Below are positions 11,347 to 30,259 of a stretch of DNA of 64,000 bases, one piece after another (the stretch's first letter is position 1; each line of letters starts with the position of its first letter). The notes under the pieces are model-generated. The model ran no database searches, was not told the origin of the DNA, and saw only the letters and a program-made list of their open reading frames with translations. The translations under genes were made by a program, and so were the position numbers. Source of the stretch: Xanthobacter aminoxidans (GTDB lineage Bacteria > Pseudomonadota > Alphaproteobacteria > Rhizobiales > Xanthobacteraceae); NCBI RefSeq assembly GCF_023571765.1, contig NZ_JAMJXC010000011.1:1-64000 (forward strand). The letters run 5' to 3'.

Positions 11347-11350
11347 GTCG

Positions 11351-11872
11351 TCAGCCGACCTTGAGGTAGCCGAACCCCTTGCCCTGCAATGCGCCGGCGG
11401 TGGCGATGCCGGAGGGCACGAAGGCGATGAAGGCCTCATCGCGCGCCTTCTCCTTGGGCACATGGTTGCGCTCGAAGGTGTAGGCGCACAGGTAGACCTT
11501 CAGCCCGTTCTTGGCGAGGGCGGCAATCTTCTCGTTGAGCGTGGGATCGAGGGTTTCCTTCTCCCACATGGTGCCGTTGAGATTGTCGAGGAAGAATTTG
11601 ATGCCGCCCGCATGGGCCACCATCACGATCTGCAGCGCGAAGGGATCGGCGCCGTAGGAGGCGTAATGGTTGTTGATGTTGTTCAGCGTCTGGGCGAACC
11701 GGGCATGGTCGCCATAGTCCACGTGATAGACGCAGGCGGTGTCCGCTTCCTTCTTGATGTCGGCGAGCTGGAGCGACTGCACGGCGGCGTGGGCCGACGT
11801 TGAGGCCGCGATCGGCGCGGCGCCTGCAAGCGCCATGGTGCCGAGGAAGGCCCGGCGGTCGAACTGGGGCAT
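11351..11872 (-). CDS. DsrE-family protein with Tat signal, in the sox operon, 173 aa
   Basis: The ATG at 11872 follows GAGAGGAA. The N-terminus has a Tat signal (FDRRAFLGTMALAGAAP, likely cut at AHA), so the protein acts in the periplasm. The mature part is a single DsrE/F-like domain: VYHVDYGDHARFAQTLNNI, the strand LQIVMVAHAGGIKFF, and KNGLKVYLCAYTFERN. The cysteine in LCAYTF lies where active DsrE/TusD-type proteins carry the sulfur-binding cysteine; a second is at TACVYH. Family members move sulfane sulfur. Position between a cytochrome c and soxF suggests it works with these at the sulfide/polysulfide step, which is inference. Confidence 0.85.
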   Translation of the reverse strand: MPQFDRRAFLGTMALAGAAPIAASTSAHAAVQSLQLADIKKEADTACVYHVDYGDHARFAQTLNNINNHYASYGADPFALQIVMVAHAGGIKFFLDNLNGTMWEKETLDPTLNEKIAALAKNGLKVYLCAYTFERNHVPKEKARDEAFIAFVPSGIATAGALQGKGFGYLKVG

Positions 11873-11971
11873 GGTTTCCTCTCCCGTCATCGGCGTCTGG
11901 CGCGCCGTGTGCTTCGGACTGTGCCACCCGCCGCCCCCGCTCCGCAACGGCGCGGCGGGCCGGCGCGCGAA

Positions 11972-12367
11972 CTACTTCTTCGAGCCGTCCGGCTTGAACT
12001 GGGCGAGGAAGGCGATGAGATCGGCGCGCTCCTGCTCGTTCTTGACGCCGGCGAAGGCCATCTTGCCCTTGGGCGCGAGGTGCTTGGGATTCTCGATGTA
12101 GTCGCTGAGGGTCGCCTCGTCCCACACCTTGCCGGCGGCGGCGCCGTCCTTGATGTCCTGGGAATAGGAATAGCCCTCGAAATGCGCCCATTTGGCGCCG
12201 ACGATGCCATTGAGGGGCGGGCCGACCTTCACCTTCGCGTCAGGGCCGACCGCATGGCAAGCCATGCACTTCTTGAACACGGTCTCGCCCTTGGCGATGT
12301 CCGGGTCGGCGTGCGCCGGGGCAGCGGCGACGCCGAGCAGGAGGGCGACCATCACGGGGATGCGCAC
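11972..12367 (-). CDS. Class I monoheme cytochrome c in the sox operon, 131 aa
   Basis: The GTG at 12367, behind a GAGGA site, is the likely start. A signal peptide ends at AHA (residue ~20). The heme site is CMACH near residue 34-38; the distal methionine is probably in APKGKMAFAGV. Length and layout match c550/c2-type electron carriers. It follows soxD, whose product carries only one heme here, and precedes dsrE and soxF. It may accept electrons from SoxCD, SoxXA or the flavoprotein; which partner is not shown by the sequence. Confidence 0.92.
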   Translation of the reverse strand: MRIPVMVALLLGVAAAPAHADPDIAKGETVFKKCMACHAVGPDAKVKVGPPLNGIVGAKWAHFEGYSYSQDIKDGAAAGKVWDEATLSDYIENPKHLAPKGKMAFAGVKNEQERADLIAFLAQFKPDGSKK

Positions 12368-12402
12368 GATCCTCGTCCTTTCCGTTGGAGGGGCTGTGTG
12401 GT

Positions 12403-12422
12403 GTCCCGGCCGCGGCCGGGAC
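12403..12422. repeat. Perfect 20-bp palindrome between soxD and the cytochrome c gene
   Basis: GTCCCGGCCGCGGCCGGGAC is its own reverse complement and occupies most of the 81-base gap. It has no T-run, so a terminator is unlikely; it could set a stability boundary in the transcript or be a relic of the GTCCCGGC-type intergenic repeats also seen at 51898-52029. Confidence 0.8.
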
Positions 12423-12448
12423 CCTTCCTTGGTGTCACGACGGGCGGC

Positions 12449-13228
12449 TCACTCCAGATTCCCCTTGGGCTGATCGCCATCCGGCGTCACGTTGAGGATC
12501 TGGGCGCGGGCGGTGACATGGACCTCGCCGCTGCAGTCCTTCATGCAGGGGTTCTTCTTCCAGAAGGCCTTTTCCGAGGTCTCCCGGTCGTCGTCGTAGA
12601 AGTTGGCCTCGTTGGGCAAATCCACCTTTGGAAAGTTGTCCTTCGAGAGCACGTAGTCCTCGGCAACGAGATCGTTGAGGTTCAGAAGATACGCGACGAT
12701 GGCGTAGGTCTGGTCCGGCGAGAGCGACAGGTTGCTGCCGAAGGGCATGGCCCGGTGCACGTAGTCATAGACCGTGGAGGCGTAGGGCCAGAAGGAGCCG
12801 ATGGTCTTTTCCGGCCGCTCGGATTTCAGGGTGCCGCGCCCGCCGGCCAGCACCGGCCAGCGGCCGGCGCCCTCGCCGAACTCGCCGTGGCACTGGGCAC
12901 AGTTCTGCAGGAACAGCTCCTCTCCCTCCTTCACCGAGCCCTTGCCCGGCGGCAGGCCCTCGCCATCGGCGCGCACGTCGATGTTCCAGGCGGCGATCTC
13001 CTCGGGCAGCGCGGGGCGGCCGAGGGCGATGGTCTTGGCGGCGGTCGGCGCGGTCGCAGCGGGAGCCGCCACGTTCACCGCCTGCCGGGCCTTGTCCGCG
13101 CCTGCCTTATCCTTCTCCGCCTTCGCCGCGGGCTTTGCGGGCTGGGGATCGGCCACGGCCATGCCGGAGACGGCCAGAGCGCCGGCGAGCAAGGCGGAAG
13201 CGAGGAGCGTCTCAGCCGACTTCCACAT
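12449..13228 (-). CDS. soxD: SoxD, cytochrome c subunit of sulfane dehydrogenase, one-heme form, 259 aa
   Basis: The ATG at 13228 overlaps the end of soxC by 17 bases. A signal peptide ends near AVA (residue 26), followed by an Ala/Pro/Lys-rich linker to ~65. The single heme site is CAQCH at 110-114; the distal methionine is probably Met161 (HRAMPFGSN). A C-terminal CMKDC (228-232) could form a disulfide. Paracoccus SoxD is a longer diheme protein (~380 residues), so the second heme domain is absent; the adjacent small cytochrome may replace it. SoxCD removes six electrons from the sulfane sulfur on SoxY. Confidence 0.92.
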   Translation of the reverse strand: MWKSAETLLASALLAGALAVSGMAVADPQPAKPAAKAEKDKAGADKARQAVNVAAPAATAPTAAKTIALGRPALPEEIAAWNIDVRADGEGLPPGKGSVKEGEELFLQNCAQCHGEFGEGAGRWPVLAGGRGTLKSERPEKTIGSFWPYASTVYDYVHRAMPFGSNLSLSPDQTYAIVAYLLNLNDLVAEDYVLSKDNFPKVDLPNEANFYDDDRETSEKAFWKKNPCMKDCSGEVHVTARAQILNVTPDGDQPKGNLE

Positions 13229-14525
13229 TTTCCGTCTCCCCGTTGGAGCGCACCAGCCACGTCTGGATGCCGTTGTTGTGATAGATGGAATTGGTGCCGC
13301 GAATGGCCCGCAGCTCCTGCTTGGTGGGCTGGACATAGCCGGTGTCGTCCATGGCGCGGGACTGCACCATCAGCTCCTGCCCGGCCCAGTCGAAATCGAG
13401 ATAGAAGCGCGTCATGGACATGGGCGTGGCCGGCCCGTCGAGGCGCGCGGTGGTCCAGTTGCGCCCGCCGTCCAGCGACACATCCACCCGCGCGATGGTG
13501 CCGCGCCCGGACCAGGCGATGCCGGAGAGCACGTTCGGCCCCTTGTGCTTCAGGGGCGCCTGCGGGCTCGGGCTCGTCACCACGGATTTCGCATCCATCA
13601 CGAAGGTGAAGCGGCGGGAGCGGCCATCGGCGAGAAGGTCGGTGTATTTCGAGGTTTCCTCCCGCTGCTGCCAGGGCTGGTCGCCGATCTTGAGGCGGCG
13701 CAGCCACTTGACCCACATGTTGCCTTCCCAGCCCGGCACCACGAGCCGCACCGGATAGCCCTGCTCGGGCCGGAGCGCCTCGCCATTCATGCCGAAGGCG
13801 ACGAGGCAGTCGTTCATGGCTTTTTCGAGCGGGATGGAGCGCGTCATCACCGCCGCGTCGGCGCCTTCGGCGAGCACCCATTTGCCCTTGGGATTGACGC
13901 CGGCCATGTCCAGCAGCGTCTTCAAAGGCACGCCGGTGTAGAAGAGATTGTGGATCATGCCGTGGGTGAACTGGCAGCCATTGAGCTGCGCACCGCGCCA
14001 CTCCATGCCGGAATTCGCCGCGCATTCGAGGAAATAGGGGCGGTTCACCCGGCCCGGCATGCGCTTCAGGTCTTCCAGCGTGAAGACGAGCGGCTTGTCC
14101 ACCATGCCGTGGATCATCAGCCGATACTTGTCCGGGTCGATCTCCGCCTGCCCGCCATGGTGCCGCACGAAGCACAGGCCGTTGGGCGTGATGACGCTGT
14201 CGAGGGCGTAGAGCGGGGTGAAGCTGACCGAGCTTTGCGAGCTGGCGGTGAGCCATGTCACCTCCCGGCGCACCACGTCCTTCTCGAAGACGGACGGCTT
14301 GCCATAGGGGTTCTCGTTGACCGGCGCGCCCAGCGTCTTGGTCCAGTCGGGCACCGGCACGATGTTGGGATCGGGCGTGCCGGCGGCCGGGGCGGCAAGG
14401 GCGGAACCTCCGCCGGCGGCAACGGCGCCCGCGCCGATCCCGGCGAGGTTGAGGAAGCGCCTGCGGGAGAGCGACGGTTTCGCGCCGGTCGCGCGTTCCG
14501 TCGGGGGCAGACTGGTGTCGGACAT
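13212..14525 (-). CDS. soxC: SoxC, molybdenum subunit of sulfane dehydrogenase, 437 aa
   Basis: This is a sulfite-oxidase-family protein. A Tat signal (SRRRFLNLAG at 20-29) exports it folded with its cofactor. The molybdopterin-ligating cysteine is Cys168 in FLECAANSGMEWRG. The C-terminal dimerisation domain (from about KHKGPNVLSG) ends in FYLDFDWAGQEL. With SoxD it oxidises SoxY-bound sulfane sulfur, so thiosulfate can go fully to sulfate without sulfur globules. The start at 14525 follows GGGAGGA; an AT-rich inverted repeat precedes it, which may allow a separate promoter. Stop overlaps soxD. Confidence 0.95.
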   Translation of the reverse strand: MSDTSLPPTERATGAKPSLSRRRFLNLAGIGAGAVAAGGGSALAAPAAGTPDPNIVPVPDWTKTLGAPVNENPYGKPSVFEKDVVRREVTWLTASSQSSVSFTPLYALDSVITPNGLCFVRHHGGQAEIDPDKYRLMIHGMVDKPLVFTLEDLKRMPGRVNRPYFLECAANSGMEWRGAQLNGCQFTHGMIHNLFYTGVPLKTLLDMAGVNPKGKWVLAEGADAAVMTRSIPLEKAMNDCLVAFGMNGEALRPEQGYPVRLVVPGWEGNMWVKWLRRLKIGDQPWQQREETSKYTDLLADGRSRRFTFVMDAKSVVTSPSPQAPLKHKGPNVLSGIAWSGRGTIARVDVSLDGGRNWTTARLDGPATPMSMTRFYLDFDWAGQELMVQSRAMDDTGYVQPTKQELRAIRGTNSIYHNNGIQTWLVRSNGETENVEVG

Positions 14526-14538
14526 GGGCGTCCTCCCT

Positions 14539-14568
14539 GATATTCTTTTATTCGTAGATTTGAATATT
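14539..14568. promoter_or_regulatory. AT-rich inverted repeat ahead of soxC, possible SoxR operator or internal promoter
   Basis: GATATTC (14539-14545) and GAATATT (14562-14568) form an inverted repeat with a 16-base spacer in the 78-base soxB-soxC gap. It stands out sharply from the GC-rich surroundings and resembles the AT-rich patches between soxY/soxA and soxV/soxS. A regulatory role is inferred. Confidence 0.4.
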
Positions 14569-14603
14569 TTGATTGGAATCGTGTGCCGGAAGGGCGTTGC
14601 GCC

Positions 14604-16307
14604 TCACGCGCCCGTCACCTTCACCGAGGCGTTGGGGGCGATCTTCACGGCCTTGGTGTCGGTCACGTAGCGCTCCACCAGCTCCCACACCGGCGGGCCT
14701 TCCACATTCTGGGCGATGGAGGCCCAGCCGGCGACCGTATAGGCCTTGTCGGCCTCCAGCGGCTTGCCGGTCTTGAGGAAGGTGAGGTCGGAGATGCGCT
14801 GGCCAGACCCCTTCGACACGTCGATGGCATAGCCCACCCCGCCGACGCGCACCATGTCGCCGCCGCCCTGGAAGTAAGGATCGGGATTGAAGATGTTGTC
14901 GGCCACGTCTTCCAGCACGTCCTTCAGCTGCTTGCCGGTCATGGTGTTGCGGTAGCAGGCGGGATAGGTGATGGCGGTGGCGTTGGCCACGGCATCGAAG
15001 GTGATGGGATCACCCGGCAGCAGCGTGCCACCCCAGCGGAAGCCGGGGGAGAGGGCGATTTCCGCGTCGCGCTCCTTCATGATCGCATCGCAGATCATGT
15101 CGTCGAACGTGCCGTTGAAATTGCCGCGGCGGTAGAGAAGGCTGTCGGCGCGGCCGAGTTCGCGGGACAGATTCTTGGCATAGGGCGCGCGGATGTCCGT
15201 CACGAGCTTCGCCATCTCCGCGTCGGGCGTGATGACGTCCGAGAACACCGGGATGAGCTGGAAGCGATAGCCGGTGACCTTCTTGTCCTTCACGTCGAGA
15301 TCGAGGCGGGACACGAACTTGCCGTGGGAACCGGTGGCCACCAGCAGCGTCTTGCCCACCTCCACCGCGCGCGGCATGGCATCATGGGTGTGGGCGGTGA
15401 GGATCACGTCAATGCCGGAGACGCGGGACGCCATCTTGCGGTCCACGTCGAAGCCGTTGTGGGAGAGCACCACCACCGCATCGGCCCCGCCGGCGCGGGC
15501 GGCGTCCACCTGCTTCTGCATGTCCTCCTCGCGGATGCCGAACTCCCAGTCCGGGATCATCCAGCGCGGGTTGGAGATGGGAGTGCGGGGGAAGGCCTGG
15601 CCGATGACAGCTACCTTGGCGCCGCCCTTCTCGAAGGTCTTCGCCGCATCGAACACCGGCTCCTGCCACTCGGCCGAGCGCACGTTCTGGGCGAGGAAGG
15701 CGAAGGGCGCCTTCTCCTTGATCTCGGTCACGCGGTCGGCGCCGTAGGTGAATTCCCAGTGCCCGACCATGGCGTCCGTGCCGAGGGCGGAGAACACCTT
15801 CACCATGTCCTCGCCCTGCGTCTTCAGGGAGGACCAGGAGCCCTGGAGCCCGTCACCGCCATCCAGCAGCAGCACCTTGTCCGCGCCGCGCTCGGCCCGG
15901 ATCGCCTTCACCAACGTGGCGATGCGATCCACGCCGCCCATGCGTCCATAGGTATGGGCGAGCTGGGTGAAGTCTTCGGAGGTGAGGGAATAGGCGTCGC
16001 GGGTGCCGCCCTTCAGGCCGAAATACTTGAGGAAAGCTGCATCGGTAAGGTGCGGCGGCACGCCCCGCGCCTCACCCACGCCGAGATTGATGGAAGGCTC
16101 GCGGAAATAGAGCGGCACGAGCTGGGCGTGGATATCGGTGATGTGCAGGATGGTGAAGGTGCCGGCATTGCCGAACTTCAGCAAATCCGCCTGGCTCAGC
16201 GCCTGCGCGCCGACCGCCTGCGCCAGCCCGGTGCCGGAGGCGGCGAGCAGGCCGGCGAGGGCCGTTCCGGCGGACAGAAAATCGCGCCTTGAGATCATGA
16301 GGGCCAC
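14604..16307 (-). CDS. soxB: SoxB, dimanganese sulfate thiol hydrolase, 567 aa
   Basis: SoxB cleaves sulfate from the S-sulfonated SoxY carrier in the periplasm. It belongs to the 5'-nucleotidase/metallophosphoesterase family. The metal-site blocks are all visible: ITDIHAQ near the N-terminus, LLLDGGDGLQGS, the SoxB-specific VGHWEFTYG, VVLSHNGFDVD and LTAHTHDAMP with TGSHGKFV. A Tat signal (ISRRDFLSAGTALAG) is present. The GTG at 16307 has a GAGAAAG site; the ATG at 16298 is an alternative that removes three residues. Length matches the family. It follows soxZ and is separated from soxC by an AT-rich gap. Confidence 0.96.
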   Translation of the reverse strand: MALMISRRDFLSAGTALAGLLAASGTGLAQAVGAQALSQADLLKFGNAGTFTILHITDIHAQLVPLYFREPSINLGVGEARGVPPHLTDAAFLKYFGLKGGTRDAYSLTSEDFTQLAHTYGRMGGVDRIATLVKAIRAERGADKVLLLDGGDGLQGSWSSLKTQGEDMVKVFSALGTDAMVGHWEFTYGADRVTEIKEKAPFAFLAQNVRSAEWQEPVFDAAKTFEKGGAKVAVIGQAFPRTPISNPRWMIPDWEFGIREEDMQKQVDAARAGGADAVVVLSHNGFDVDRKMASRVSGIDVILTAHTHDAMPRAVEVGKTLLVATGSHGKFVSRLDLDVKDKKVTGYRFQLIPVFSDVITPDAEMAKLVTDIRAPYAKNLSRELGRADSLLYRRGNFNGTFDDMICDAIMKERDAEIALSPGFRWGGTLLPGDPITFDAVANATAITYPACYRNTMTGKQLKDVLEDVADNIFNPDPYFQGGGDMVRVGGVGYAIDVSKGSGQRISDLTFLKTGKPLEADKAYTVAGWASIAQNVEGPPVWELVERYVTDTKAVKIAPNASVKVTGA

Positions 16308-16399
16308 GCTTTCTCAGGTCATGGCGGGAGCGCCCACCGGATCGCGAGATCCGATGGCGCGTCCACCGACAACAACGGAACAATGCGAGGGGCGTCGCC

Positions 16400-16729
16400 T
16401 CAGGCGACGGTGAGCTTCGCGGTGGCCTTCTGCTCGGCGCCGCCGTCATCCTTCCAGGTGAAGGTGAACTCGCCGCTCTCCTTCGCCTTGAAGAAGAAGG
16501 ACTGGTAGGGGTTCGCCGAAATGGAGGTGAACCACTCCGCGGTGAAGAAGGGCTTGCCGTTGAAGGCGGCCTGGAAGGTGTTGATGATGTCGCGCGGCAC
16601 GGTCTTTCCGGCGGCATCCTTGCGCTGGCCGCTTTCCATCTCGTGCGAAATCAGGGTCTTGATCTCGATGATCTCGCCCGCCTTGGCCTGGGCAGGCACG
16701 CGCACGCGCGGCTGGGACTTGAGGGCCAT
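16400..16729 (-). CDS. soxZ: SoxZ, partner of the sulfur carrier SoxY, 109 aa
   Basis: The protein has no signal peptide, as usual for SoxZ, which is exported bound to SoxY. Recognisable blocks are RVRVPAQAKAGEIIEIKTLI, SHEMESGQRKD, IINTFQAAFNGKPFF and the C-terminal EFTFTWKDDGG, the beta-sandwich typical of the family. The ATG at 16729 follows GGAGGAAA. Downstream of soxY by 87 bases and upstream of soxB by 92 bases, in one operon. Confidence 0.96.
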   Translation of the reverse strand: MALKSQPRVRVPAQAKAGEIIEIKTLISHEMESGQRKDAAGKTVPRDIINTFQAAFNGKPFFTAEWFTSISANPYQSFFFKAKESGEFTFTWKDDGGAEQKATAKLTVA

Positions 16730-16816
16730 GGGTTTCCTCCGGTTTCTGCTCGGCGGCGCTCCGGCGCGCGCCTGTTCTGTTCTTTTGTGTGTTCGGGCCG
16801 TGATTCGACTGTCGTA

Positions 16817-17290
16817 TCAGCCGCCGCAACCACCGATGGTGACTTTCACCTGCACCTTGGCCGAATAAAGCTGTCCGTTGGACATCTCCGCCACGGCGAT
16901 GACGTTCTGCGTCTGCGCGAGTCGCATGCGGGTGGAGGCGGAGGCTTTTCCGCTCTCGGGGGTGAAGTGATAGGTCACCACCTGCGGCAGCGGATTGCCG
17001 TCGGCGAAGACGTGGACGGACTTCACGAAGTCCGTCTCGGTCATCGGGCTTTCCACATCGATGTTGATGGGCACGACGAGGCCGTTCTCGGCGATCTCGG
17101 GCATGTCGAGCTTGATCTTGCCCTCGCCCATGGTCTTGCCGGCGAACAGCTTCTTCATTTCGTCCGCCACCTGCGCCTCGGTGGCGAGCGCCATGCGCGG
17201 CGCCAGCACGGCGGCGAATGCGGCGAGGCCGGCGAGCTTCAGCGCGCGGCGTCGCGTAGAGACAAGGGTGACGTCGAGACGGGGCGGCAT
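16817..17290 (-). CDS. soxY: SoxY, covalent sulfur carrier, 157 aa
   Basis: SoxY holds pathway intermediates on a cysteine in the C-terminal GGCGG swinging arm, which is intact here. A twin-arginine-type signal (STRRRALKLAGLAAFAAVL) ends near ALA and would carry SoxZ along. The start at 17290 follows AGGAGG; an upstream open stretch to 17449 lacks a ribosome site and reads through the promoter region. First gene of the leftward sox operon, divergent from soxA. Confidence 0.96.
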   Translation of the reverse strand: MPPRLDVTLVSTRRRALKLAGLAAFAAVLAPRMALATEAQVADEMKKLFAGKTMGEGKIKLDMPEIAENGLVVPINIDVESPMTETDFVKSVHVFADGNPLPQVVTYHFTPESGKASASTRMRLAQTQNVIAVAEMSNGQLYSAKVQVKVTIGGCGG

Positions 17291-17390
17291 GCGTTTTCCT
17301 CCTGGCACGACCGGCGCTTGAGGGCCGGCTTTTGGCGTTGTTCTTGTTGAATCTCGTCCCCGTGACGGCGGTGGTCTCGGCGGATCAATT

Positions 17391-17430
17391 TCACATATTG
17401 TGATATCGAATTTTTTGAATGTAAAGTAGC
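17391..17430. promoter_or_regulatory. AT-rich divergent control region between soxY and soxA
   Basis: Within the 256-base gap, 17387-17430 is strongly AT-rich. It holds the short dyad CACA-TAT-TGTG at 17392-17402 and a nearby CGAATTTTTTGAATG stretch. It is the natural place for the divergent soxYZ and soxAX promoters and a SoxR site. In other sox loci SoxR binds such intergenic regions (family knowledge); binding here is inferred. Confidence 0.5.
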
Positions 17431-17546
17431 TCCTATCCGCCGATCGCATCCATCTATGAGGGATGGAGCGTCGCAGGTGGATCGCCGCGGCTCAAGGGCT
17501 TCAACGAGAAGGCCCCAGGCCCCGGACGTCTCGCTGGGGAGGATAC

Positions 17547-18377
17547 ATGCGACCCAAAGCCACGATTCTCACATGCCTGTGCGCCCTCGCTCTGGCGCTC
17601 TTGCCCTTCGTCACGGCCCGCGCGCAGGAGGACGCGAGCGAAAAGGAGATCGAGCGCTACCGCGCCATGATCAACGATCCCATGGCCAATCCCGGCTATC
17701 TCGCCGTGGACCGCGGCGAGGCCATCTGGGCCGATCCGCGCGGCACCAAGAACGTCTCGCTGGAGGCCTGCGACCTCGGCCAGGGGCCGGGCAAGCTGGA
17801 AGGCGCCTACGCCGCTTTGCCGCGCTATTTCGCCGACGCCGGCAAGGTCATGGACCTCGAACAGCGCCTCTTGTGGTGCATGGACAAGATCCAGGGCGTC
17901 GACATCAAGCCCATCATGGCCAAGCCCTTCTCCGGCCCCGGCCGCGGCTCGGACATGGAGGACCTCGTCGCCTTCATCGCCAACAAATCCAACGGCATGA
18001 AGATCAACATTCCCCTGGCTGATCCGAAGGAGAAGGAGGCCTATGCCATTGGCGAGGCGCTGTTCTACCGGCGCTCGTCCATCAACGACTTCTCCTGCTC
18101 CACCTGCCACGGCGACCCCGGCAAGCGCATCCGGCTCCAGGGGCTGCCGCAGCTCGACAAGCCGGGAAAGGATGCCCAGCTCACCATGGCCTCCTGGCCC
18201 ACCTACCGCGTCTCCCAGAGCTCGCTGCGAACCATGCAGCACCGGCTGTGGGACTGCTATCGCCAGATGCGGATGCCCCCGCCGGGCTATGCCTCGGAAG
18301 CCGTCACCGCGCTCACCGTCTTCCTGCAGGCGCAGGCGGCCGGGGGCGAGCTGAACGTGCCGTCCATCAAGCGCTGA
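17547..18377 (+). CDS. soxA: SoxA, cytochrome subunit of the SoxXA thiosulfate-binding complex, one-heme type, 276 aa
   Basis: SoxXA attaches thiosulfate to SoxY with release of two electrons. The signal peptide ends at ARA (residue 26). Only one heme site is present, CSTCH at 184-188; its axial cysteine is Cys237 in [11 protein letters not shown], the residue that carries the persulfide in active enzymes. The site of the first heme of diheme SoxA is replaced by isolated Cys75 and Cys111, likely a disulfide, as in Starkeya-type SoxA. Start at 17547 behind GGGGAGGA. SoxX follows 14 bases later. Confidence 0.95.
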
Positions 18378-18391
18378 GGGGAGGAAGAGCC

Positions 18392-19018
18392 ATGAAGACA
18401 ATCATCATCGCCGCGGCGCTTCTTCTTCCGCAGGTCGCCCCCGGAATCGCGTTCGCCCAGCAGATCCCCCCTGCCCCGCCTGCCGTGGTGGACAGGGTGG
18501 TGAAGGAGAGCTTCACCAAGCTGCCCGACGGCTGGGCCGCGCGGCTCGTGCCCGACGAGACCATGGAAATCTGCTCGGTCACGCGCAACCAGCCCTCCGC
18601 CAAGCAGGCCGAGGCCATCATGGCCCGCGAGGCCAAGACGGTGAAGTATCCGCAAGGCAGCGTGCTCGGCGACTGGAAGAAGGGCGCGGAAGTCGCGCAG
18701 AACGGACGCGGCGGCCAGTTCTCCGATCCGCCCGGCACGGTGAGCGGCGGCAATTGCTACGCCTGCCACCAGATGGACCCGAAGGAAGTCAGCTACGGCA
18801 CCCTCGGCCCGAGCCTCGTCAACTACGGCGCGGAGCGGAAATTCTCAGCCGAGGATGCCAAGGCCGCCTATGCCAAGGTCTATAACGCGCAGGCCGTGTT
18901 CGCCTGCTCGCCCATGCCGCGCTTCGGGCATAACGGGGTGCTCAGCGAGGAGCAGATGAAGGACGTGGTGGCCTATCTGTTCGATCCGAACTCGCCGGTG
19001 AACAAGCCGGCGAAATGA
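18392..19018 (+). CDS. soxX: SoxX, monoheme cytochrome c of SoxXA, 208 aa
   Basis: A signal peptide ends at AFA (residue 22). The heme motif is CYACH at 122-126 and the distal ligand is probably Met175 in CSPMPRFGH. Residues 30-115 form the extended N-terminal region seen in larger SoxX proteins. Cys61 (EICSVTRN) and Cys172 may form a disulfide. It is the second gene of the soxAX operon and is followed by a strong terminator hairpin. Confidence 0.95.
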   Translation: MKTIIIAAALLLPQVAPGIAFAQQIPPAPPAVVDRVVKESFTKLPDGWAARLVPDETMEICSVTRNQPSAKQAEAIMAREAKTVKYPQGSVLGDWKKGAEVAQNGRGGQFSDPPGTVSGGNCYACHQMDPKEVSYGTLGPSLVNYGAERKFSAEDAKAAYAKVYNAQAVFACSPMPRFGHNGVLSEEQMKDVVAYLFDPNSPVNKPAK

Positions 19019-19025
19019 GGTGACC

Positions 19026-19060
19026 GGCGGGGGCGCTCCGGTGCCCCCGCCTTTTCCTTT
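19026..19060 (+). terminator. Rho-independent terminator after soxX
   Basis: GGCGGGGGC (19026-19034) pairs perfectly with GCCCCCGCC (19043-19051) across an eight-base loop and is followed by TTTTCCTTTT. It lies between the convergent soxX and soxW stops. Confidence 0.85.
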
Positions 19061-19624
19061 TCAGCCCTTGCCCTGCTTGCCGAGCCACGCATCGAACGGC
19101 TCGCGCGCATAGGCGCCTTCGGCCACATAGCGGAACAGCGCGGAGAATTCCGGCCGTGGCAGCAGGCCCGGCATGCGCGCCACCTCCTTGGGCTTTCCAT
19201 CCACCTCGGCGAAGAACTGGAAGGTGGGCGTGGCGCGGATGCGTTCGCGCTGGCCGAGCGCCTTTTCCGTGAGCTTCGCGCCGTCGAGGAAGGTCACCTC
19301 CCGCGCGCCGAACAGATCCAGATGCACGATGTCGAACGCCTCCTTGATGGGCGTCTCGATGGCCGGATCGGCGAAATAGGCGGTGTGCAGCTCCTTGCAA
19401 TAGATGCAGCCGCGCTGGCTCCACTGCAGCGCGAAGCCCCGCCCCTTCCCGCGCGCAGCGGCGAAGTCTTCCGGCAGGTCGAGGAAGCTGTCCACGTACC
19501 AGTCTTCGGTATAGAGCCCGTCGTCGCCGAGGTGCGCCTTGGCCTGCGCGGCGGCGGGCACGAGCGCCGCGAGCCCCGCCGAGGCCTTCAGGAGGCGCCG
19601 GCGGCTGAGCGTGGGGTCTGCCAT
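19061..19624 (-). CDS. soxW: SoxW, periplasmic thioredoxin-like protein, 187 aa
   Basis: The ATG at 19624 follows AGGAGG. A Tat-like signal (SRRRLLKASAGLAAL) ends at AQA. The thioredoxin fold carries the active site CIYC within WSQRGCIYCKELH and the cis-proline strand RATPTFQFF. SoxW receives reducing equivalents from the membrane protein SoxV and keeps Sox proteins such as SoxY reduced (family knowledge). It lies 17 bases downstream of soxV in the same operon. Confidence 0.88.
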   Translation of the reverse strand: MADPTLSRRRLLKASAGLAALVPAAAQAKAHLGDDGLYTEDWYVDSFLDLPEDFAAARGKGRGFALQWSQRGCIYCKELHTAYFADPAIETPIKEAFDIVHLDLFGAREVTFLDGAKLTEKALGQRERIRATPTFQFFAEVDGKPKEVARMPGLLPRPEFSALFRYVAEGAYAREPFDAWLGKQGKG

Positions 19625-19641
19625 GGGGAGGTCCTCCTGTC

Positions 19642-20370
19642 CTATCCGATGGTGCCGAGGCCGGGCGCGGCATCGAGCAGCCATTGGGCGATCTCGGGCA
19701 TGAAGCCGGTCATGAAGGCGATGCCGGTGAGGATGAGCAGCCCGCCGGCGATCTTCTCCACGAGGCCGAGCCGGCTGCGCGCCGCCCGCGTCCAGGCGAG
19801 GAACCGCTCGGTGAAGGCCGCGGCGATGAGAAAGGGAATGCCGATGCCGGCGGCATAGATAGCGAGCAGCAGCATGCCCCGCCCCACCGATGCCTCGGCG
19901 CCCGCAACAAGCAGGATCGCCGCCAGCACCGGCCCGACACAGGGCGACCAGCCGAAGCCGAAGGCGAGCCCCACCACGTAAGGCCCGATCAGTCCCGCCG
20001 GCCGCGCCATGGGCTCCAGCCGCGCCTGCCGGTAGAGCAGCGGAATGCGGATGAGCCCCGTCATGTGCAGCCCGAACACCACCAGCAACGCTCCGGAGAG
20101 CAGCGTCAGGGTCTCGATATGATCCATCAGCACCCGCCCCAGCGAAGAGGCGGTGGCCCCGAGCAGGATGAAGACGGAGGCGAAGCCGAGGACGAACAGC
20201 AAGGCCGCGCCGAGGATGCTGCGCCGTGCGGGCACGGGGTCCTCCCCGTCCTCCGCAGCCGCGCCCGCGAGGAAGCCGAGATAGGCCGGCACCAGCGGCA
20301 GCACGCAGGGCGAGGCGAAGGAGAGGAGGCCGGCAAGGAACGCCCCTGCGAGGCTGACATCGAGAGACAT
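19642..20370 (-). CDS. soxV: SoxV, CcdA-family transmembrane thiol-disulfide transporter, 242 aa
   Basis: Six hydrophobic segments and the paired redox cysteines of CcdA proteins are visible: FASPCVLPLVPAY in the first helix and GFGWSPCVGPVLA in the fourth. It passes electrons from cytoplasmic thioredoxin across the inner membrane to SoxW. Start ATG at 20370 behind GGGGAGGAG; an upstream in-frame ATG at 20406 lacks a site. Divergent from soxS across a 117-base promoter region with an inverted repeat. Confidence 0.92.
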   Translation of the reverse strand: MSLDVSLAGAFLAGLLSFASPCVLPLVPAYLGFLAGAAAEDGEDPVPARRSILGAALLFVLGFASVFILLGATASSLGRVLMDHIETLTLLSGALLVVFGLHMTGLIRIPLLYRQARLEPMARPAGLIGPYVVGLAFGFGWSPCVGPVLAAILLVAGAEASVGRGMLLLAIYAAGIGIPFLIAAAFTERFLAWTRAARSRLGLVEKIAGGLLILTGIAFMTGFMPEIAQWLLDAAPGLGTIG

Positions 20371-20429
20371 GCTCCTCCCCGATCGTTGGAAACCGCGTCG
20401 GTTCAAGGTGCGCGGATTAGTCCTTGCCC

Positions 20430-20459
20430 AAGATATATGCGAATGCGATAATATGTCTT
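20430..20459. promoter_or_regulatory. Inverted repeat in the soxV-soxS promoter region, probable SoxR operator
   Basis: AAGATATAT (20430-20438) and ATATGTCTT (20451-20459) are inverted copies matching at eight of nine positions with a 12-base spacer. The location equals the soxS-soxV intergenic region bound by SoxR in other sox systems (family knowledge). The arms lie 28 bases before the soxS start and 60 before soxV, so one bound repressor could block both. Confidence 0.6.
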
Positions 20460-20487
20460 GTGAAATCCACGTCTGGATTGTGAATTC

Positions 20488-20877
20488 ATGCGCCCTTCAG
20501 CGGTCCTGATGCTCGCGGCCGGTCTTTCGGTGTTTCTCGCGCCTGCTGCCTCGGCGCGGGAGCTGCTGATGTTCGAGCGCAAGGGCTGCGCCTATTGCCT
20601 GAAGTTCGACCATGACGTGGCGCCCATCTACGAGAAGACCGACGAGGGGCAGCGCGCGCCGCTCCGCCGGGTGGACCTCTCCAGCGGTGCGCCGGGCGAC
20701 GTGGTGCTGGCCGCGCCGGTGCGCTTCACGCCCACCTTCGTGCTGGTGGACGAGGGGCGCGAAGTCGGGCGCATTACCGGCTATGCTTCAGATGAAGCAT
20801 TCTGGGGCCTGCTCGGCTCGATGCAGAACACGATGCGGGACACGATACAGGACAGGATGGCAGGCGCGCGGCCGTGA
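20488..20877 (+). CDS. soxS: SoxS, periplasmic thioredoxin-like protein, 129 aa
   Basis: A signal peptide ends at ASA (residue 23). The active site CAYC sits in ERKGCAYCLKFDHDV, and the cis-proline strand is RFTPTFVLVDEGREVGRITGY. In Paracoccus SoxS is a periplasmic disulfide reductase needed to keep SoxY active. It precedes soxR by 32 bases, so reductant supply and regulation are co-expressed. The ribosome site is weak. Confidence 0.88.
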   Translation: MRPSAVLMLAAGLSVFLAPAASARELLMFERKGCAYCLKFDHDVAPIYEKTDEGQRAPLRRVDLSSGAPGDVVLAAPVRFTPTFVLVDEGREVGRITGYASDEAFWGLLGSMQNTMRDTIQDRMAGARP

Positions 20878-20909
20878 GGTCGCCCCGCCAGGATTGAGAA
20901 GGCAGGCAC

Positions 20910-21281
20910 ATGTCGATCGTTTCCAGGCGCCTTGAGGACGAGCTGCGGGAAGGCCCGGAGATTTCGCCCGAGCTCGACCGCCTCATGCGCAACGCCCGCA
21001 AGGCGAGCGACTTCCTCAAGGCGCTCTCCCACGAGAACCGCCTGCTGCTCCTGTGCCTGCTGGCGGAGGGCGAGCGCTCGGTGACGGAGCTGGAGAACAT
21101 CCTCTCCCTGCGCCAGCCTACGGTCTCCCAGCAGCTGGCGCGCCTGCGCCTCGACGATCTCGTCACCACGCGGCGCGACGGCAAGACCATCTATTACAGC
21201 CTCGCCAACGATGATGTGCGCCGGGTGATCTCGGTCATCTACGACATGTATTGCGGCACGCCCGCATCGGACGCAAAGTAA
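20910..21281 (+). CDS. soxR: SoxR, ArsR-family repressor of the sox genes, 123 aa
   Basis: A winged helix-turn-helix covers residues ~30-110, with ALSHENRLLLLCLLAEGERS, the recognition helix RQPTVSQQLARLRLD and the wing RRDGKTIYYSL. Cysteines in LLLLCLLAE and in MYCGTPAS near the C-terminus correspond to the redox pair used by SoxR to sense sulfur intermediates and leave DNA. It probably represses the soxY/A, soxV/S and perhaps soxC promoters. Upstream is soxS, downstream a hairpin and soxT. Confidence 0.92.
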   Translation: MSIVSRRLEDELREGPEISPELDRLMRNARKASDFLKALSHENRLLLLCLLAEGERSVTELENILSLRQPTVSQQLARLRLDDLVTTRRDGKTIYYSLANDDVRRVISVIYDMYCGTPASDAK

Positions 21282-21300
21282 GCTCAGTAAAAATGCGCCG

Positions 21301-21338
21301 GGCCGGCGACGGGACGCTTCATAAGTCCCGCTCCGGCC
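21301..21338 (+). promoter_or_regulatory. Long hairpin between soxR and soxT
   Basis: GGCCGG (21301-21306) pairs with CCGGCC (21333-21338) and CGGGAC (21310-21315) with GTCCCG (21325-21330), giving a two-part 12-bp stem around a nine-base loop. There is no T-run; the soxT ribosome site (GGGAGGAAGG) follows five bases later. It may act as an mRNA processing or partial termination signal tuning soxT. Confidence 0.6.
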
Positions 21339-21360
21339 ATCTCAGGGAGGAAGGCGCGCA

Positions 21361-22467
21361 ATGGATGTTTCAAGCCCCTGGTGGACCGCGCTGGCCGGTC
21401 TCGCCGTGGGCGGGGTGGTCGGCTTCGCCGTGTTCCGCGCCCGCCTGTGCACCTTCGGCGCGCTGGAAGACGCCATGGTGGGCCACGACTGGCGCCGCAT
21501 GAAGGTGTTCGCGCTCGCCCTCGGCCTCGCCGTGCTCGGCACGCAGGCCCTCACCATGGCCGGCATTCTCAGCCCCGACCGCACGAACTACGTCACGACC
21601 GCGCTACCCTGGCTCGGCATCCTCACCGGGGGCGTGCTGTTCGGCCTCGGCATGGCGCTGGTGGGCACCTGCGCCTTCGGCTCGCTGGTGCGCCTGGGCT
21701 CGGGCGACCTGCGCAGCCTCGTCGTGCTGCTGGTGTTCGGCGCGGTCGCCTACGCGACCTTGCGCGGCATCTTCGCCGGCATCCGGGTGGACGGGCTGGA
21801 GCGCGTCGCCCTTCTGCTGCCGGCCGGTACCGCCAGCGACCTGCCCTCCATCATGGGGCGGCTCACCGGGCATGATTTCAGGGGCATCCTCACCGCCGTC
21901 GCGGGCGTCGCGCTGGTGGCGCCGGCCTTCGCCGACCGCAGGCTGCGCCGCGCCGGGCGGCTGATGACGGCGGGGGTGATGCTGGGCCTCGGCGTGGTCG
22001 CCGGCTGGCTCGCCACCACCTGGCTGGTGGACGAGTTCGCCCACCCCATGGCGCCGCAGAGCCTCACCTTCGTCTCGCCGGTGGCCCGCGCTTTGTTCGG
22101 CGTCCTGTTCGAGCCCACGAGCCTCGCCGAGTTCGGCGCCGGCAGCGTCTTCGGCGTCGCCCTCGGCGCCTTCGCCGCCGCCCGGCTCGCGGACGAATTC
22201 CGCTGGGAAGCCTTCGACGACCCGCGCGAGATGAAGCGCCATCTGCTCGGCGCGGTGCTCATGGGCTCCGGCGGCATCCTCTGCGGCGGCTGCACCATCG
22301 GGCAGGGCCTGACGGCCGGTTCCCTCTTCGCCTTGTCCTGGCCGCTCGCGGTGGCGGGCATGGCGGTGGGCGCGCGGCTCGGCATCGCGCTGCTGATGGA
22401 AGGCTCGCTGACCGGCTTCGTGCGCCAGAGCGTGGCTGGCCGCTTCGGCTTCCACAACAAGCCCTGA
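21361..22467 (+). CDS. soxT: SoxT-like YeeE/YedE sulfur-compound permease, 368 aa
   Basis: This membrane protein has about nine to ten helices and the conserved cysteine blocks of the YeeE/YedE (sulf_transp) family: FRARLCTFGALED, GTCAFGSLVRLGSGDLRS and GGILCGGCTIGQGLTAGS. The E. coli-like member imports thiosulfate through such cysteines; in sox loci SoxT is thought to bring a sulfur inducer to cytoplasmic SoxR. Start at 21361 with GGGAGGAAGG. It ends ten bases from the convergent kinase gene. Confidence 0.88.
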   Translation: MDVSSPWWTALAGLAVGGVVGFAVFRARLCTFGALEDAMVGHDWRRMKVFALALGLAVLGTQALTMAGILSPDRTNYVTTALPWLGILTGGVLFGLGMALVGTCAFGSLVRLGSGDLRSLVVLLVFGAVAYATLRGIFAGIRVDGLERVALLLPAGTASDLPSIMGRLTGHDFRGILTAVAGVALVAPAFADRRLRRAGRLMTAGVMLGLGVVAGWLATTWLVDEFAHPMAPQSLTFVSPVARALFGVLFEPTSLAEFGAGSVFGVALGAFAAARLADEFRWEAFDDPREMKRHLLGAVLMGSGGILCGGCTIGQGLTAGSLFALSWPLAVAGMAVGARLGIALLMEGSLTGFVRQSVAGRFGFHNKP

Positions 22468-27879: not shown

Positions 27880-29982
27880 TCAGTAGCGGGCGTCCGCCGG
27901 CTTCTTGTCCTTCGGCCAGTCGTTCACCTTGGGGGCGAAGTCCGGCCGCGGCATGTGGCTGAAGTATTCGGCCACATCCACCGCCTCCTGATCGGTGAGG
28001 CCGCCCTGGCCCAGCGGGAAGCCGCCGTGGAAGCCGATGGGCATGTTGCGCTTCACGAACGCCGCTGCCGTGTACGTGCGCGCCATGCCCGCGCCGATGT
28101 TGAAGGACTGGTCGCCCCAGAGCGGGGGATAGACGAAGGCGCCGGCGGCGTCCTTGATGCCCTCGCCGTTGCCGCCGTGGCAGACGGCGCACTGGGCGGC
28201 GTAGACCTTGGCGCCGTTCTCGGTGTCCGGCTTGATCTGCTGGCTGATCTTGCCGACGCCGCGGCCCTCCACCTTGTCCTCGGGCTTGGTCTCCCGCTTC
28301 ATCCAGTCGAAATAGGCGACCATGGCCTTCATGTCGTCGCCGTCCTTGGCGAGCGGCTTGCCGTTCATGGAGCGCAGGAAGCAGCCGTTGATGCGGTCCT
28401 CCAGCGTGATCTCCCGTCCGGCCCGCGGCGCATAGCTGGGGAAGAAGGCGGAGACGCCCACATAGGGCGAGCCGTCGGCCACCGTGCCGGCATTGAGGTG
28501 GCAGCTGGAGCAGTTCAGCACGTTGCCGACATTCTTCGGCAGCAACGTGTGCGTCTCGGTGTTGAGGCGCATGCCGCGCACCAGCTGGGTGGCGTTGGGC
28601 TCATTGAGCACGTCGGCGATGCGCGGCGTGTCGAAAGGCCGGGTGTCCACCTTCGGGTCGAGCGTTGCGCGCGCCGCCTTCACCGCGCCGGCCGTCACCG
28701 GCGCTGCCCCGCCGCCCCAGCTGGCGCGGACGAAGGAGAGGATGTCGGCGATCTCGTCGTCCCCCAGCCGGGCGAAGCCGGGCATGGTGAAGACGCGGGC
28801 ATGGGCCTGCGTCTGCGCCGTCGCCCAGCCGGTCAGGGTGATGTGGACGAGCGTCGAGGGGTCCTTGGCCGCGACGGTCGGATTGCCGGCAAGCGGCGGG
28901 AACACCTTGGCGACGCCGGCGCCGTTGAGGCGATGGCAATCGGCGCAGAACTGGGCATAGGCGAGCCCGCCCCGGCTGGTGAACATGGCGGCGGGAACCG
29001 CCGAGGCCATGCCCGTGTCCGGCGTCGCCGGGCGCGGGGCGCGCGGCTGGTCGGTGGGCAGACCGCCGAGATAGGTGGCGATGGCCACGAGATCAGCGTC
29101 GGTGAAGTTCTGGGTGGAGTTGTGGATCACCTCGGTCATGGAGCCGGAGACGGTGCCGAAGCGGTTCTGGCCGGTCTTCAGCAACTCGACCGTGTCATCC
29201 ACGTCGCCGAGGCCGCGCAGATTGACCGCGTTCCACTCCTCCACCTTGGAGCCGGAGAGGAACTTGTCGCCGCCGCCACCCGTATCGCCCATGGCGAGCT
29301 CCTGGAAGCCAATGCCCCGCGGCGTGTGGCAGGCGCCGCAATGGCCGAGGCCCTGCACCAGATAGGCGCCGCGGTTCCACACCTCACCCTTGCCCGCGTC
29401 GGCGACGAAGGGGTGGCTGTCGAGGAACATCTGGTTCCAGAACGCCAGCGTCCAGCGCTGGTTGAAGGGGAAGCCGATGCCGGACGGCCTGTTGAGGCTG
29501 TCCACCGGGGTCACGCCCTTCATGAGGTAGACGTAGAGCGCATACATGTCGTCCGGCGACATCTTCGCGTAGGACGGGTACGGCATGGCCGGGTACATGT
29601 GGGTGCCGTCGGCGGTCACGCCCTTGCGCATGGCGCGGTCGAAGGCACCGAAGCTGTAGCGGCCGATGCCGGTCTTGGGATCGGGCGTGATGTTGGTGGA
29701 ATAGAGCATGCCGAACGGCGTCTCCAGCCCGCGCCCGCCGGCCATGGGCTTGCCGTCCGCCGTGGTGTGGCAGGCGACGCAGTCGCCCAGCTCTGCGATG
29801 TACTTGCCGCGCGCGACCAGCTCCGCGTCCGCCACCTGCGGCAGCGCGCGGCCGCCATCCTCAATGCGCGGCGGGGTGACGACCCACCAGAACACGGCCG
29901 CGCCAACCACCGCGACGCCGGCTGCGGCCGCCGCGATTTTCTTCAATCGCGGCCTGCGCCGGATTGTCCCTTCGTCGTTCAT
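27880..29982 (-). CDS. Five-heme cytochrome: triheme dehydrogenase-type cytochrome fused to a TsdA-like thiosulfate dehydrogenase, 700 aa
   Basis: Start at 29982 with AGGAGGT. Residues ~16-37 form an N-terminal membrane anchor. Residues 55-430 resemble the triheme cytochrome subunit of membrane alcohol/gluconate dehydrogenases, with CVACH (68-72), CGACH (215-219) and CADCH (346-350). Residues ~450-700 match TsdA: CSSCH (491-495), RINGCFLRSMNGKPL with Cys534, CAVCH (598-602), PPLWGDQSFNIGAGMARTY and NMPIG. Cys534 fits the heme-1 axial cysteine; Met647, 45 residues after His602, fits a heme-2 ligand. TsdA oxidises thiosulfate to tetrathionate or the reverse. The fused module could wire it to the quinone pool or oxidases. 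Divergent from trxC. Confidence 0.85.
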   Translation of the reverse strand: MNDEGTIRRRPRLKKIAAAAAGVAVVGAAVFWWVVTPPRIEDGGRALPQVADAELVARGKYIAELGDCVACHTTADGKPMAGGRGLETPFGMLYSTNITPDPKTGIGRYSFGAFDRAMRKGVTADGTHMYPAMPYPSYAKMSPDDMYALYVYLMKGVTPVDSLNRPSGIGFPFNQRWTLAFWNQMFLDSHPFVADAGKGEVWNRGAYLVQGLGHCGACHTPRGIGFQELAMGDTGGGGDKFLSGSKVEEWNAVNLRGLGDVDDTVELLKTGQNRFGTVSGSMTEVIHNSTQNFTDADLVAIATYLGGLPTDQPRAPRPATPDTGMASAVPAAMFTSRGGLAYAQFCADCHRLNGAGVAKVFPPLAGNPTVAAKDPSTLVHITLTGWATAQTQAHARVFTMPGFARLGDDEIADILSFVRASWGGGAAPVTAGAVKAARATLDPKVDTRPFDTPRIADVLNEPNATQLVRGMRLNTETHTLLPKNVGNVLNCSSCHLNAGTVADGSPYVGVSAFFPSYAPRAGREITLEDRINGCFLRSMNGKPLAKDGDDMKAMVAYFDWMKRETKPEDKVEGRGVGKISQQIKPDTENGAKVYAAQCAVCHGGNGEGIKDAAGAFVYPPLWGDQSFNIGAGMARTYTAAAFVKRNMPIGFHGGFPLGQGGLTDQEAVDVAEYFSHMPRPDFAPKVNDWPKDKKPADARY

Positions 29983-30259
29983 GGAACGACCTCCTGTCAT
30001 GGCCGGCGCCCCGAACGCGCGCACGAACCCCTCCGGAGAAACGGCATCCCGTCCCTCCGGCGATTCGCGGCTGCTTTCGCACCGCCTTCCAAGTCCCGCG
30101 CGACGACACTACAGCCGCACCGCAACAGGGCATTGACGCACCGCAACTGTGAAATTCCCGCCCTTGCCTTGCGGCGCCGCCACGGCCGCCTATCTGGACG
30201 GGAGAAAGGAGCGGCCGCAGGCGAACCGGATCCGGCGCCCGGCGGCCGTCATCGACATC

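Follow-up and report, generated by a model that had tools for sequence, protein, structure and literature searches.

The stretch analyzed here (the window) comprises 64,000 nucleotides of Xanthobacter aminoxidans (contig NZ_JAMJXC010000011.1, positions 1 to 64,000) and carries on its minus strand a gene that starts with an ATG at 29982 and ends with its stop codon at 27880. Translation of this interval gave one intact frame of 700 residues with no internal stops and with five CxxCH sites, at residues 68, 215, 346, 491, and 598. An earlier reading made from the letters alone (the sequence-only reading) had described this frame, without stating a strand, as a pentaheme fusion of an N-terminal triheme cytochrome of the dehydrogenase type and a C-terminal TsdA. 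Pfam, phmmer, and Foldseek agreed with both module identities. An AGGAGG motif is located 7 nt 5′ of the ATG, and AGGAGGTCGTTC preceding the ATG was conserved in five of six aligned loci of the Xanthobacter group.

The triheme module (residues 44–442) was matched by phmmer to the cytochrome subunits of quinone alcohol dehydrogenase (ADH; 8gy2_B, E = 1.9e-94), glucose dehydrogenase (GDH; 8hdd_B, 1.5e-84), fructose dehydrogenase (FDH; 7w2j_C, 2.8e-68), and aldehyde dehydrogenase (8gy3_A, 2e-53). With its three CxxCH sites and its ADH/FDH-type match, it is not a diheme TsdB module. Its residues M133, M282, and M400 were invariant in an alignment of 36 rows and may serve as heme ligands. The C-terminal part is TsdA rather than SoxA: its match to A. 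vinosum TsdA (4wqc) had E-values of 2.6e-51 for the whole protein and 3.1e-52 for the C-terminal 260 residues, and that to SoxA (1h31) was far weaker (6.6e-8). Pfam placed cytochrome c domains on the protein and PF21342 (SoxA/TsdA) at residues 490–558. An AlphaFold model of modest quality (predicted local distance difference test score 68.6, predicted template modeling score 0.49) led Foldseek to the same two modules (8gy2_B, E = 2.2e-26 with 40% identity; 4wq7, E = 9.8e-12).

The TsdA hallmarks named by the sequence-only reading, Cys534 within EDRINGCF, PPLWGDQSFNIGAGMARTY, and Met647 at 45 residues past His602, were all present. C534 and M647 were both invariant in the 36-row alignment, and Cys534 was kept in at least 97% of 86 sequences. 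The active-site residues given for A. vinosum TsdA (AvTsdA), R109, R119, C123, S127, and R224, of which S127 is described as conserved in TsdAs only (PMC4423706), correspond to R520, R530, C534, S538, and R635 of the fusion with unchanged spacing, and all five were invariant in the 36 rows. In TsdA, thiosulfate is bound at the cysteine and Heme 2 relays electrons, and the characterized enzymes work in both directions (PMC5146829). By analogy, TsdA-type catalysis would be the natural expectation for the fusion.

Residues 10–35 of the window protein are hydrophobic and were predicted as a single helix in the AlphaFold model. Inspected by eye, the N-terminal segments appeared uncleaved and anchor-like in Xanthobacter, Rhodopseudomonas, Ideonella, Siculibacillus, and Rubrivivax, and resembled ordinary cleavable signal peptides in Pseudomonas, Delftia, Zoogloea, and others; an automated AxA flag failed to separate the two classes. 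The N-terminus is anchor-like in the window protein, and the anchor was discarded as a family trait. Quinone reduction is known for members of the triheme family. The subunit 8gy3_A of aldehyde dehydrogenase aligned from residue 13, with the N-terminal hydrophobic segment included, which helps the idea of a quinone partner a little. The signal-peptide-like N-termini of many relatives speak against it. Beyond the triheme module, 40–56 C-terminal residues remained unaligned in the ADH, FDH, and GDH subunits and only 8 in 8gy3_A; the segment after the third heme domain is therefore not family-defining, and its lack in the fusion was weakened as an argument against quinone. Ubiquinone has a potential near +100 mV, and electron transfer to it from thiosulfate would be uphill because the tetrathionate/thiosulfate couple lies higher. 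The potential of that couple is given as +198 mV (PMC5146829). Quinone coupling of the fusion is possible but unproven.

To describe the distribution of the fusion, the best 80 of 140 confirmed stretches from a contig scan were combined with 12 loci, window copy included, into a set of 92 (L001–L092; some genomes occur twice). The gene was a single frame with five CxxCH sites and RINGC in all 92 loci, from alpha-, beta-, and gammaproteobacteria, which excludes a frameshift or two separate genes in the window; 86 of the 92 were distinct over the last 600 residues. The best 80 showed 63–95% identity and included loci of Xanthobacter, Rhodopseudomonas, Bradyrhizobium, Zoogloea, Azospira, Ideonella, Delftia, Ralstonia, Cupriavidus, Rhodoferax, Rubrivivax, Gallionella, and many Pseudomonas. 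Eleven of 14 Xanthobacter genomes had the fusion (E ≤ 1e-150); a second TsdA gave no match in the window genome, and a solo TsdA was additionally present in several other Xanthobacter genomes. Among 398 evenly drawn Pseudomonadota genomes, a TsdA domain (E ≤ 1e-20) was found in 38 and the fusion in five, and the five hemes were confirmed in the four of these other than that of the window. Eleven of 752 matching plasmid records, two of them the same pMOL30, covered at least 80% of the query, and two plasmid records matched in two pieces, one of which, Paracoccus versutus pBEN, carries the two genes as an unfused pair. The fusion on Cupriavidus metallidurans pMOL30 (L093:8749-11001) is located about 5 kb from czc metal-efflux genes, and a divergent fusion (L130:5955-8235; 61% in the TsdA part) lies near two PF04143 sulfur-transport genes and a gene for a solute-binding protein. 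With a crude gene caller that overlooked genes on some loci, no neighbor common to 14 loci (Pseudomonas, Rhodopseudomonas, Ralstonia, Delftia, Xanthobacter, and others) was seen. The fusion is a conserved TsdA architecture and an intact gene family that is not restricted to the Xanthobacter of the window. The sequence-only reading knew of no characterized fusion of this type, and none was seen described among the matches listed by searches of open-licence literature.

Unfused pairs, in which a three-heme gene is followed by an adjacent or overlapping TsdA gene, were found at L104, L097, L125, L127, L128, and L129. A tree of 93 TsdA domains, obtained by a quick search with long-branch warnings, placed the 53 fused rows on one side of a branch (Shimodaira–Hasegawa approximate likelihood ratio test support 87), grouped the six pairs (98), and united fused and paired domains (99); the TsdB-linked TsdAs and 18 solo TsdAs of the family to which the window belongs stood apart. 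The tree and the pairs fit a single fusion of a cotranscribed pair. As the sister group of the fusion, the pairs also back the functional link between the triheme relay and TsdA that had been proposed. At L144:123-2375, a three-heme gene adjoins a TsdA gene outside this clade, perhaps a second, independent pairing.

Sensor kinases were sought around 84 fusions and one unfused pair. A kinase with a PhnD domain was present within 10 kb of the gene in 21 of these 85 loci, three of which had supplied the query sequences, and it was accompanied by a response regulator wherever the contig continued. The kinase gene lay upstream on the same strand in 12 loci, downstream on the same strand in eight, and on the opposite strand in one; those of L028 and L039 were cut at contig ends, and those of L042 and L031 showed one in-frame stop. 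For all five kinases tested, the best NCBIfam model was TtrS, matched over the full length with E-values of 3e-87 to 6e-97. Among 40 hand-picked fusion genomes, one per locus for 40 of the best 80, a TtrS-like kinase was found in 19 and TtrA in seven (E ≤ 1e-150, none above the curated cut-off). Only 10 of the 398 background genomes had such a kinase (Fisher P = 8e-16, with the five fusion holders removed and relatedness not corrected for), where three candidates were scored per genome versus up to 33 in the fusion genomes. Thirteen of the 19 kinase genomes were without TtrA at E ≤ 1e-150, and 11 were without SoxB. In the remaining six, TtrA was located 0.6–2.3 kb from the kinase gene, so this kinase family is tied to tetrathionate and serves ttr operons, which helps the tetrathionate idea a little.

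The promoter regions of the relatives contained further candidate control elements. A GGYTA-N6-TARCC palindrome preceded the fusion in nine of the 12 loci with upstream TtrSR-like genes, and palindromes based on CCCGGG (CCCGGG-N4-CCCGGG) were located at the fusion promoter in six of the eight loci with downstream ones. Both palindromes formed islands of conservation upstream of the fusion (L022, L026, L029, L031, L034, and others) and are candidate operators for the response regulators. They were rare elsewhere: of the 11 and 14 matches found in 1.6 Mb, with overlapping ones included in the count, nine and 11 lay upstream of the fusion. An FNR/ANR-type box (TTGAT-N4-ATCAA-like, variants allowed) was present in 27 of 31 Pseudomonas loci, L071 included, at a constant 22-nt spacer from a −10-like hexamer. 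The operator patterns and the Pseudomonas box were derived from the loci in which they were counted, so their presence is partly by construction; the patterns are informative because they are scarce elsewhere and the spacer is constant. At most one mismatch to the FNR consensus was found in 25 of 83 upstream regions, 20 of the 25 from Pseudomonas, versus 1.8% of 1902 control segments. Salmonella ttr requires both TtrSR and FNR (PMC5408782).

In the window, TTGCGN5TCAA precedes the fusion, as it does in 11 of the 12 loci L001–L012, window included; the pattern occurred 45 times on the two strands of all loci (1.9 Mb). The TTG-N8-CAA core of TTGCGGTGCGTCAA, the copy in the window, resembles sites of the Crp/Fnr family, and the element is possibly such a site. 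The features of the window are listed in the table. A complete Sox system had been claimed to lie beside the fusion; SoxXA, SoxYZ, SoxB, and SoxCD were indeed found, SoxD by position and domain, at a distance of about 5–18 kb, which makes "beside" a loose term. Genes for a sensor kinase, DsbD, a DsbA-like protein, and an L,D-transpeptidase are located in between. A Sox link is not a family trait, as no SoxB was found in 21 of the 40 fusion genomes.

Table. Features of the pentaheme fusion gene and of its surroundings in the window
Feature	Position	Strand	Basis or remark
Pentaheme fusion gene, 700 aa (triheme relay + TsdA)	27880-29982	-	Translation; single frame in 92/92 loci
N-terminal hydrophobic helix, residues 10-35	29878-29955	-	Sequence and model; anchor-like in the window protein, not family-wide
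Triheme relay module, residues 44-442	28657-29853	-	phmmer and Foldseek
CxxCH 1, residues 68-72	29767-29781	-	Invariant, 36-row alignment
CxxCH 2, residues 215-219	29326-29340	-	Invariant, 36-row alignment
CxxCH 3, residues 346-350	28933-28947	-	Invariant, 36-row alignment
TsdA catalytic module, residues 465-688	27919-28590	-	phmmer, Foldseek, PF21342
CxxCH 4 (TsdA Heme 1, active site), residues 491-495	28498-28512	-	Invariant, 36-row alignment
Cys534, predicted axial ligand and nucleophile at Heme 1 (AvTsdA Cys123)	28381-28383	-	Invariant; spacing as in AvTsdA
CxxCH 5 (TsdA Heme 2), residues 598-602	28177-28191	-	Invariant, 36-row alignment
Met647, predicted axial ligand of Heme 2	28042-28044	-	Invariant; aligns with the AvTsdA methionine
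Conserved upstream element TTGCGGTGCGTCAA, TTG-N8-CAA core	30133-30146	-	150 nt 5′ of the ATG; role unproven
Sox cluster (context, not part of the enzyme)	10060-22467		SoxXA, SoxYZ, SoxB, SoxC, cytochrome at SoxD position; also FCSD flavoprotein, DsbD-type and thioredoxin-like proteins, ArsR regulator, TsuA/YeeE-type transporter
Cytochrome c at SoxD position	12449-13336	-	By position and cytochrome c domain only
SoxC	13212-14525	-	
SoxB	14604-16307	-	
SoxZ	16400-16729	-	
SoxY	16817-17449	-	
SoxA	17463-18377	+	
SoxX	18248-19018	+	

We consider the fusion to be a one-gene, five-heme TsdA whose likelier main direction across the family is tetrathionate reduction at low oxygen, with a probability of roughly 0.52. 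Tetrathionate and thiosulfate would be interconverted at the Cys534/His-ligated heme via a cysteine S-thiosulfonate, as established for TsdA, and the predicted electron path would connect Heme 1, Heme 2 (Met647), the triheme relay, and a partner in the periplasm or the membrane. In this scheme the relay would fill the place of TsdB in TsdBA enzymes and, during tetrathionate reduction, would be fed family-wide from the quinol/cytochrome c side. The sequences show the identity of the modules, the conserved residues, the single fused clade, the linkage to TtrS/TtrR-like genes, and the promoter elements; activity, direction, and redox partner are predictions. Regulation in the family tilts, without settling the matter, toward tetrathionate reduction, which the sequence-only reading had given as its bracketed alternative. 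A broader proposal, that the fusion is a widespread molybdenum-free single-gene enzyme of tetrathionate respiration that replaces TtrABC under TtrS/TtrR-like or FNR/ANR-type control depending on the lineage, is more tentative, and we hold it at somewhat less than even odds.

Several observations weigh against a reductive main direction, and part of them would suit a thiosulfate dehydrogenase that forms tetrathionate, passes electrons through the triheme relay to a periplasmic cytochrome c, an oxidase, or quinone, and drains thiosulfate beside Sox in Xanthobacter. We regard this oxidative role as a serious contender that is nevertheless on the doubtful side. The linkage to TtrS/TtrR leaves the direction unfixed because, in V. 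parahaemolyticus, TtrRS switches on tsdBA, whose product oxidizes thiosulfate (PMC11293645). In Rhodoferax (L045:1881-11965), the fusion keeps the same gene company as that tsdBA: it is divergent from ttrBCA, on the far side of which lies ttrSR (assigned by best model, with scores under the curated cut-offs), and both the precedent and this adjacency speak for oxidation. The kinases scored 293–325 bits versus the NF040750 TtrS cut-off of 750 and are TtrS-like only, and the three regulators tested scored higher for FixJ than for TtrR. No TtrS-like kinase was found in 21 of the 40 fusion genomes, and none was found in the 14 Xanthobacter genomes, which showed only kinase-domain matches at E ≤ 1e-40; nor was a classical FNR box found in the window, where the best candidate had three mismatches. 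The Heme 2 motif KRNM was tried as a marker of direction, as it resembles K252-x-N254-M255 of the reductive C. jejuni TsdA (PMC5146829), and was dropped since KxNM is common among TsdB-linked TsdAs; the oxidation-biased MpTsdBA carries AANM at this position. SoxB, which is part of the Sox set of the window, was enriched as well (19 of the 40 fusion genomes versus 60 of the 398 background genomes; Fisher P = 5e-6, again with the five fusion holders removed and relatedness not corrected for), another point in favor of thiosulfate oxidation, with which the two-way operation of characterized TsdAs is also compatible.

A further such point comes from G014 (L104:1166-8009), a genome of the same family as the window, in which CcoN-, CcoO-, and three-heme CcoP-like genes come after the unfused pair, together with a second TsdA gene. 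Its oxidase genes scored above the Pfam cut-offs for COX1 and FixO and below those of the NCBIfam models. This cbb3-type context suggests oxidation, possibly with a dedicated oxidase. The oxidative role fits less well with the TtrS-like kinase without TtrA in 13 of the 40 fusion genomes, with the FNR/ANR-type boxes in Pseudomonas, and with the uphill transfer to ubiquinone noted above. It is also at odds with two Azospira loci (L027 and L030), where the fusion is immediately followed by a diheme gene, whose position makes it TsdB-like, and by a separate gene of TsdA type, which would render a second oxidase redundant; this arrangement suggests a division of labor. In the Xanthobacter of the window, where no TtrS-like kinase was found and a Sox set lies nearby, the fusion may work in either direction. 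Improbable in our view is another substrate or role, such as organic thiosulfonates, other polythionates, or protein-bound sulfur at the Cys-ligated heme, or service mainly as an electron shuttle. The separation of the fused and paired clade from TsdB-linked and solo TsdAs would agree with it, as would the varied contexts (no shared partner in the 14 loci, czc genes on pMOL30, and the sulfur-transport genes of L130), but the invariance of all five AvTsdA active-site residues, among them the serine described as TsdA-specific, argues against it.

The four annotated plasmid records that we examined all labeled the gene only "c-type cytochrome" or "cytochrome C", and surveys built on diheme TsdA or TtrA may therefore overlook the fusion. 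If the family does reduce tetrathionate, pseudomonads, Rhodocyclales, and others would gain a route of tetrathionate respiration that has perhaps not been looked for. If single-gene tetrathionate respiration holds, the fusion would take the part of TtrABC in bacteria that are not known to respire tetrathionate, and if thiosulfate oxidation holds, it would connect thiosulfate with the respiratory chain as a self-contained wire.

The fusion shares features with several known systems. With TtrBCA-based tetrathionate respiration it has in common the TtrS/TtrR-like regulators found near the gene at 21 of 85 loci, whereas TtrA is a molybdopterin protein and the fusion a cytochrome, and 33 of the 40 fusion genomes had no TtrA at E ≤ 1e-150. 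A. vinosum TsdA (4wq7) and C. jejuni TsdA have the same Cys/His active-site heme, Arg and Ser residues, and Heme 2 methionine, but they are diheme proteins with separate partners, and the KRNM of the fusion is replaced by KHKM in AvTsdA. The triheme subunits of the alcohol, glucose, fructose, and aldehyde dehydrogenases aligned over the entire triheme module; in the fusion, in contrast, TsdA follows the third heme domain, and the enzyme is fused rather than a separate subunit. Marichromatium purpuratum TsdBA (5lo9), which residues 426–681 of the fusion matched with E = 1.1e-37, likewise joins an N-terminal heme module to a C-terminal TsdA in one chain, but its partner is the diheme TsdB, whereas the fusion carries a triheme module of the dehydrogenase type.

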